From: Allocoleopsis franciscana PCC 7113 | Lineage (GTDB): Bacteria; Cyanobacteriota; Cyanobacteriia; Cyanobacteriales; Coleofasciculaceae | Direction: 5' to 3' | Assembly (NCBI RefSeq): GCF_000317515.1 | Contig: NC_019738.1 | Location: 3,994,001 to 4,058,000, forward strand | DNA length: 64,000 bases | Shown: positions 30,071 to 30,385 of the stretch, one piece after another | How positions within the stretch are numbered: position 1 is the stretch's first letter | Layout of the letters: each line of letters starts with the position of its first letter | Position numbers and translations under genes: made by a program | The notes under the pieces: generated by a model | The model's database searches: none | What the model saw: the letters and a program-made list of their open reading frames with translations, nothing else | Told to the model about the DNA's origin: nothing

Positions 30071-30110
30071 GAATTTGTAGGGAAGGTTGAAAGGCGCACT
30101 TCGTTCGGGA
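30071..30110 (+). ncRNA. delocalised degenerate repeat and 17-nt homing guide to tRNA-Pro
   Basis: After the last repeat and about 20 nt, a degenerate repeat half (GAATTTGTAGGGAAGGTTGAAAG; positions 30071-30093) keeps only the 3' portion of the repeat that pairs with the tracrRNA. The next 17 nt (30094-30110, GCGCACTTCGTTCGGGA) are identical to the sense strand of the neighbouring tRNA-Pro gene across its D-stem end and anticodon arm. This is the known homing arrangement of V-K CASTs, with a short atypical guide. Confidence 0.93.
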
Positions 30111-30189
30111 TTATTCTGATAGGATTAAATATTCTCAACACAATGAGAGGGTAACTTTCTTACTTCATTTTCCACGTTCAGAAGTTTAG

Positions 30190-30301
30190 CGACAATAATT
30201 TGTTAACAGTTGCCTAGAAGCAAAGTCGCCGTAACAGCGACGTGAATTTGTTAAAAACGACATCAATCTGTTAATAGCGACATTTAATTTGTGAATGTAC
30301 A
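30190..30301 (-). repeat. CAST right end with four TnsB-type binding sites
   Basis: Sites oriented opposite to those of the left end lie at 30190-30207, 30238-30254, 30258-30274 and 30278-30301. The outermost is a perfect 24-bp inverted copy of the left terminus. All share CGAC-N8-TGTTAA or the terminal TGTGAATGTACA. The right end is compact (three sites within 64 bases), as usual for Tn7-like elements. Confidence 0.92.
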
Positions 30302-30311
30302 ACAATTATAA

Positions 30312-30385
30312 TCGGGATGACAGGATTTGAACCTGCGACCCCTTCGTCCCGAACGAAGTGCGCTACCAAGCTGCGCTACATCCCG
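30312..30385 (-). tRNA. tRNA-Pro (anticodon CGG)
   Basis: The minus strand folds into a complete cloverleaf: acceptor CGGGATG/CATCCCG, D-arm GCGC-AGCTTGGTA-GCGC, anticodon arm CTTCG-TTCGGGA-CGAAG with CGG at positions 34-36, T-arm with TTCAAAT, and discriminator A. CCA is not encoded. A TATAAC-like -10 element lies about 10 nt upstream. The gene is the attachment target of the adjacent CAST. The insertion left the tRNA coding part intact, with only 10 bases between its 3' end and the transposon. Confidence 0.97.

Follow-up and report, generated by a model that had tools for sequence, protein, structure and literature searches.

Homing guide and Cas12k module of a type V-K CAST at a cyanobacterial tRNA-Pro gene probably have different histories

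The 64,000-nucleotide stretch of the Allocoleopsis franciscana PCC 7113 genome that we analyzed (hereafter, the window) holds an element of about 19.8 kb, spanning positions 10522-30301, with the features of a type V-K CAST. Specifically, it carries cas12k, tnsB, a frameshifted tnsC, and 37-nt repeats in a short array beside cas12k (Table 1). Its ends are inverted, have TGT...ACA termini, and contain repeated TnsB-type sites; the first 24 bases of the right end are the same as the first 24 of the left end. Following the definition in the CvkR paper of 2023 (PMC9938897), the left end is the one on the CRISPR side, nearest to the tRNA, and the insertion orientation thus agrees with the published rule. 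The candidate tniQ matched no Pfam or NCBIfam family and, compared with the sister genome described below, has a short in-frame insertion at 13890-13930; a Pfam scan of the larger ORFs turned up no tnsA. The Mza-type anti-phage cargo looks complete, with a cytosine methylase and MzaB-E. Upstream of cas12k, two small ORFs (24723-25345) are also found together in several other V-K CASTs; neither matched a Pfam family, and the second has a weak NCBIfam match only. The putative tracrRNA region had no match in Rfam, and the single array spacer had no target match in phages and plasmids.

Table 1. Features of the tRNA-Pro element and of the genome's other CAST (positions in the window unless a locus is given).
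Feature	Position	Strand	Remarks
Right end, tnsB side	10522-10740	+	terminus TGTACA, 10522-10527
tnsB, 598 aa	10863-12659	+	Mu-transpos_C, HTH_23; 91% aa identity to sister's
tnsC, frameshifted	12669-13513	+	TniB/AAA; open 240-aa remainder 12791-13513
tniQ, probable, by position, 181 aa	13513-14058	+	conserved with sister
Mza-type defence cargo	14733-23622	-	cytosine methylase, MzaB, MzaC, MzaD, MzaE
Small Arc-like regulator	24400-24624	-	93% aa identity to that of sister Pro element; 2.8 kb from cas12k
Probably transplanted tract	24826-30049	+	ORF1 3' part, ORF2, GmrSD-like gene, cas12k, tracrRNA region, array
GmrSD/DUF262-like cargo gene	25376-27316	+	PF03235
cas12k, 637 aa	27458-29371	+	NF038191, 822 bits (cut-off 150)
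tracrRNA region, putative	29372-29937	+	position and CCCTCCC anti-repeat; conserved in both sister elements
CRISPR array	29938-30049	+	two 37-nt repeats (29938-29974, 30013-30049) and one 38-nt spacer
Truncated repeat R*, GGGAAGGTTGAAAG	30080-30093	+	3' part of the 37-nt CRISPR repeats
Homing guide (17-nt delocalised anchor spacer), GCGCACTTCGTTCGGGA	30094-30110	+	exact inverse match to tRNA-Pro; 2 genome copies
Left end, CRISPR- and target-proximal	30187-30301	-	repeated TGTCG-type sites; terminus TGTACA, 30296-30301
tRNA-Pro(cgg), gene intact	30311-30386	-	directed toward the element
Protospacer in tRNA-Pro	30347-30363	-	100% complementary to guide
PAM GTA	30364-30366	-	read on tRNA strand, 5' of protospacer
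Second CAST of the same genome	L003:11688-12500 (G000:C1 about 5.618 Mb)

The guide, PAM, and insertion distance can be read directly from the locus, as can the ends and the gene content. A first-pass annotation had noted, after a repeat half, 17 nt identical to the sense strand of tRNA-Pro, and this was correct to the base. Its other readings held as well: the GTA at 30366-30364 was borne out on the tRNA strand and fits a GTN PAM, the distance from PAM to terminus was again 62 bases when recounted (30302-30363), inside the range of about 60-66 typical of V-K homing, and the Pro(CGG) target, described as running through the D-stem end and anticodon arm, corresponds to tRNA positions 24-40, with the protospacer covering the end of the D-arm and most of the anticodon arm. 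A whole-genome search (7.97 Mb) returned the exact 17-mer at two sites, the guide itself and tRNA-Pro, and nowhere else. Furthermore, shuffled windows gave an expectation of 0.06 matches to the 17-mer with up to three mismatches, against the 2 observed. The arrangement follows that described in PMC9938897, where an R* of about 12 nt precedes a 17-nt anchor spacer, the PAM is GTN, the tRNA gene is directed at the left end, and 46-82 nt separate the PAM from the left end.

The same address is used well beyond this genome. We fetched 80 cas12k loci and searched each for a 17-mer that follows a repeat half and matches, in inverted orientation, nearby downstream sequence. Such a guide was found in 61 loci, a count that includes the studied element and the second CAST of its genome, so that 60 of the 61 are other loci. 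Every one of the 61 had a GTN PAM, 52 had a tRNA gene as target (called with ARAGORN), and the distance from PAM to end, measurable in 57, ranged from 52 to 66 bases, with 60 the commonest value. The first-pass annotation had suggested looking for the 17-mer beside cas12k in other cyanobacteria, and its recurrence at tRNA-Pro(CGG) was observed directly: an identical guide sits at this tRNA in L013, L014, L024, L066, L071, L087, L098, L099, L100, and L101. Hosts with the same 17-mer at tRNA-Pro(CGG) include Nostoc, Leptolyngbya, Lyngbya, Mastigocoleus, Halomicronema, Chlorogloea, Phormidesmis, and others, with the Phormidesmis guide having one mismatch to its own tRNA. The L038 guide differs by one base, and its tRNA carries the same substitution. 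On a Cas12k tree, elements that home to tRNA-Pro are dispersed and cluster no more than they do with shuffled labels.

Other loci of the survey deserve mention in their own right. The same 17-mer beside a Cas12k element inserted elsewhere had been named as a finding that would count against homing, and L092 was the single apparent case. Five bases beyond its left end lie the right end and the tnsB of another CAST, L071, which sits at tRNA-Pro; stacking of L092 behind it explains the exception. Both elements lie on one contig (Chlorogloea sp. CCALA 695, NODE_14) and use the same 17-mer guide, stacked at one tRNA-Pro despite reported target immunity. Homing guides with GTN PAMs were present in L037, L061, L067, L073, L083, L088, L089, L094, and L102, whose targets ARAGORN did not call as ordinary tRNAs; that of L089 may be an intron-containing tRNA.

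Taken together, the exact geometry, the use of one guide at this tRNA by unrelated elements, and the matching change in L038 strongly support RNA-guided homing to tRNA-Pro(CGG). An alternative is that the 17-nt identity arose by chance, or is a leftover tRNA fragment, and that the element arrived by another route. Integrase-based use of tRNA genes is common among mobile elements, and the partly decayed state of this copy might be counted in favor of such a route. Yet a chance match is ruled out by the shuffled windows, the genome-wide uniqueness of the 17-mer, and the GTN PAM in 61 of 61 loci. The position of the exact 17-mer beside R* and the narrow range of distances speak against either version, no site-specific integrase was present among the proteins scanned, and recurrence across loci already contradicts both. 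We give this alternative a negligible probability.

By analogy with published V-K systems, from which we infer transcription of the guide and the chemistry of transposition, a short crRNA that joins R* to the 17-nt guide would have steered a Cas12k to tRNA-Pro(CGG), at its D-arm/anticodon part beside the GTA PAM. TniQ, TnsC, and TnsB would then have carried out the insertion immediately beyond the tRNA gene, at a distance of 62 bases from the PAM.

The age of the insertion can be judged from a sister genome of the same genus (G386), in which a CAST occupies the orthologous site, with cysC on one side and tRNA-Pro/lipA on the other. Its guide is identical to that of the studied element. Between the two loci, the flanks are 87-93% identical in nucleotide sequence, tnsBCQ 88%, and the stretch from guide to lipA 93%. 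Because ends and flanks have diverged alike, we read the pair as one old insertion that predates the split from the sister species. If related CASTs had instead inserted separately at this tRNA-Pro in the two species, some of the details would fit: the distance from PAM to end is 62 bases in the studied element vs 64 in the sister, and the sister Pro element has a perfect 5-bp TSD (TCACT on both sides), as expected of an undisturbed simple Tn7-like insertion, while none was found around the studied element, where ACAAT (30302-30306) faces ATTCT (10517-10521). Stacking and repeated use of tRNA sites also occur. But the ends, tnsBCQ, the Arc gene, and the guide region diverge equally with the chromosomal flanks, as a single insertion predicts, and we regard independent insertions as improbable. 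The missing TSD and the difference between 62 and 64 could have come about by decay or by independent insertion at the same target, and each keeps some residual probability. A second TGTACA in the sister (position 2501) was considered as an outer right end and rejected, the TCACT pair marking the inner one.

The Cas12k of the sister Pro element, however, is only 51% identical to that of the studied element. The closer sister Cas12k (83%) belongs to a separate CAST at tRNA-Val(UAC), with guide GAGCGCCTGCCTTACAA, PAM GTA, and a distance of 62 bases; the two halves of that element lie on contigs C6 and C10 and share the TSD ACATA, and its tnsB is 46% identical to that of the studied element. In nucleotide sequence, 24789-30049 has its best match in this tRNA-Val(tac) element, at 89.0% identity over 5293 bases, and the alignment stops with the final base of the last repeat, at 30049. 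To the left of about 24825 and to the right of the last repeat, the match switches to the sister Pro element. Identities to the sister Pro and Val elements, respectively, are 91 and 67% for the 5' part of ORF1, 64 and 88% for its 3' part, 66 and 87% for cas12k, 80 and 89% for the tracrRNA region, 80 and 66% for the post-array segment, and 89 and 69% from the guide to the end. The element is thus a mosaic, with one joint inside ORF1 and the other inside the last CRISPR repeat, just before the homing guide.

From these comparisons we conclude that the effector module was probably swapped after insertion and the address retained. The tract of ORF1, cas12k, tracrRNA, and array would have been replaced by its equivalent from a CAST like the sister's tRNA-Val(UAC) element, with the joint inside the last CRISPR repeat sparing the homing guide and the ends. 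With two genomes of one genus in hand, the studied element is the recipient by parsimony, since one transfer explains both joints and the opposite direction would take a pair of events sharing their boundaries. In the reverse case, the ancestral Pro element would have had the studied type of Cas12k, the sister Pro element would have acquired another module, and the Val element would have copied the studied type separately. A decayed 5' fragment of a studied-like ORF1, which precedes the complete ORF1 of the sister Pro element, is a possible scar of such a replacement. That history requires two independent events with identical boundaries, in ORF1 and in the last repeat, and we find it rather unlikely. 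As a whole, a type V-K CAST very probably has its attachment site at this locus, with an old insertion and an effector tract that was replaced later. The proposal that the element placed itself here by RNA-guided transposition consequently stands for its ends, tnsBCQ, and guide, but not demonstrably for the present Cas12k: as this protein is a probable later transplant, the insertion may have been made with a different Cas12k.

It is possible, though we put it at somewhat less than even, that CRISPR repeats serve as recombination joints in V-K CASTs generally, across which a homing cassette (R*, guide, and left end) and an effector module (cas12k, tracrRNA, and array) are exchanged between co-resident elements. 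Among the surveyed loci, L081 has its guide and left end in common with L065, whose Cas12k is 80% identical, and has its nearest Cas12k (94%) in L042, which bears another guide. Comparing guide and left-end similarity with Cas12k similarity in this way hints faintly at a general exchange, the pairs being non-independent and similarity being bound to stop at the repeats as spacers differ.

The studied copy may now be impaired or immobile, as the tnsC frameshift and lost TSD suggest. A 5-base insertion near 12786-12800 puts tnsC out of frame after about 40 codons; in the sister, tnsC is intact, with 279 aa. In addition, R* reads GGGAAGG here vs GGGAGGG in the sister, and is predicted to pair more weakly with the CCCTCCC anti-repeat (about -12 to -13 kcal/mol vs -19 in the sister); the predicted pairing of the anti-repeat with the studied R* is no better than shuffled.

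Other CASTs and remnants occur in the same genome. The second CAST uses guide CGAGTCCAGTTGTGTCC to home to tRNA-Val(GAC), with PAM GTT and a distance of 62 bases; when its TSD was sought, an exact search did not find the right end. The tRNA-Val(UAC) site of the studied genome is without the sister's Val element and holds an older CAST remnant, common to the sister. This remnant (L196:4076-6234; G000:C1 about 3.306 Mb) has a decayed left end with repeats and a guide with two mismatches to tRNA-Val(UAC), and is interrupted by a transposase-like gene. In the sister genome, a newer CAST is inserted between this remnant and tRNA-Val(UAC).

The homing interpretation is correct and of a kind already described; the site illustrates, cleanly and in nature, a mechanism from the literature. 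What is added comes from the two-species comparison, in which guide and transposon ends appear to have been kept while the adjoining RNA-guided effector was replaced. What is new is that an address and the machine next to it would differ in their history, with the joint lying within a CRISPR repeat. Reviews describe V-K elements as using delocalised guides to diverse tRNA genes (PMC11406308, PMC11656645), and the first of these, from 2024, calls their attachment-site use unusually dynamic "for unknown reasons." Repeat-mediated exchange, if true, would offer a concrete, testable reason: address and machine would evolve separately, which would explain why attachment sites differ among close V-K relatives. 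As a caution for other studies, a guide and the neighboring Cas12k need not have a common history.

Homing of type V-K CASTs by a delocalised crRNA was reportedly established by Saito et al. in 2021 and by Hsieh and Peters in 2021. The element described here shares with that mode of homing a truncated repeat-spacer outside the array, a short guide, a GTN PAM, a tRNA target, and an offset of about 60 bases. The geometry is identical, and the difference is that the effector module here was apparently exchanged relative to the guide and ends. Likewise, R*, the 17-nt anchor spacer, and a tRNA directed toward the left end correspond to the architecture in PMC9938897, whereas the Arc-like regulator lies 2.8 kb from cas12k with cargo between them. 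With ShCAST (Tn7747) and AnCAST, the element has in common Cas12k, TnsB, TnsC, and TniQ (here assigned by position), with no TnsA found; it differs from them in its frameshifted tnsC, its Mza defence cargo, and its tRNA-Pro(CGG) target.
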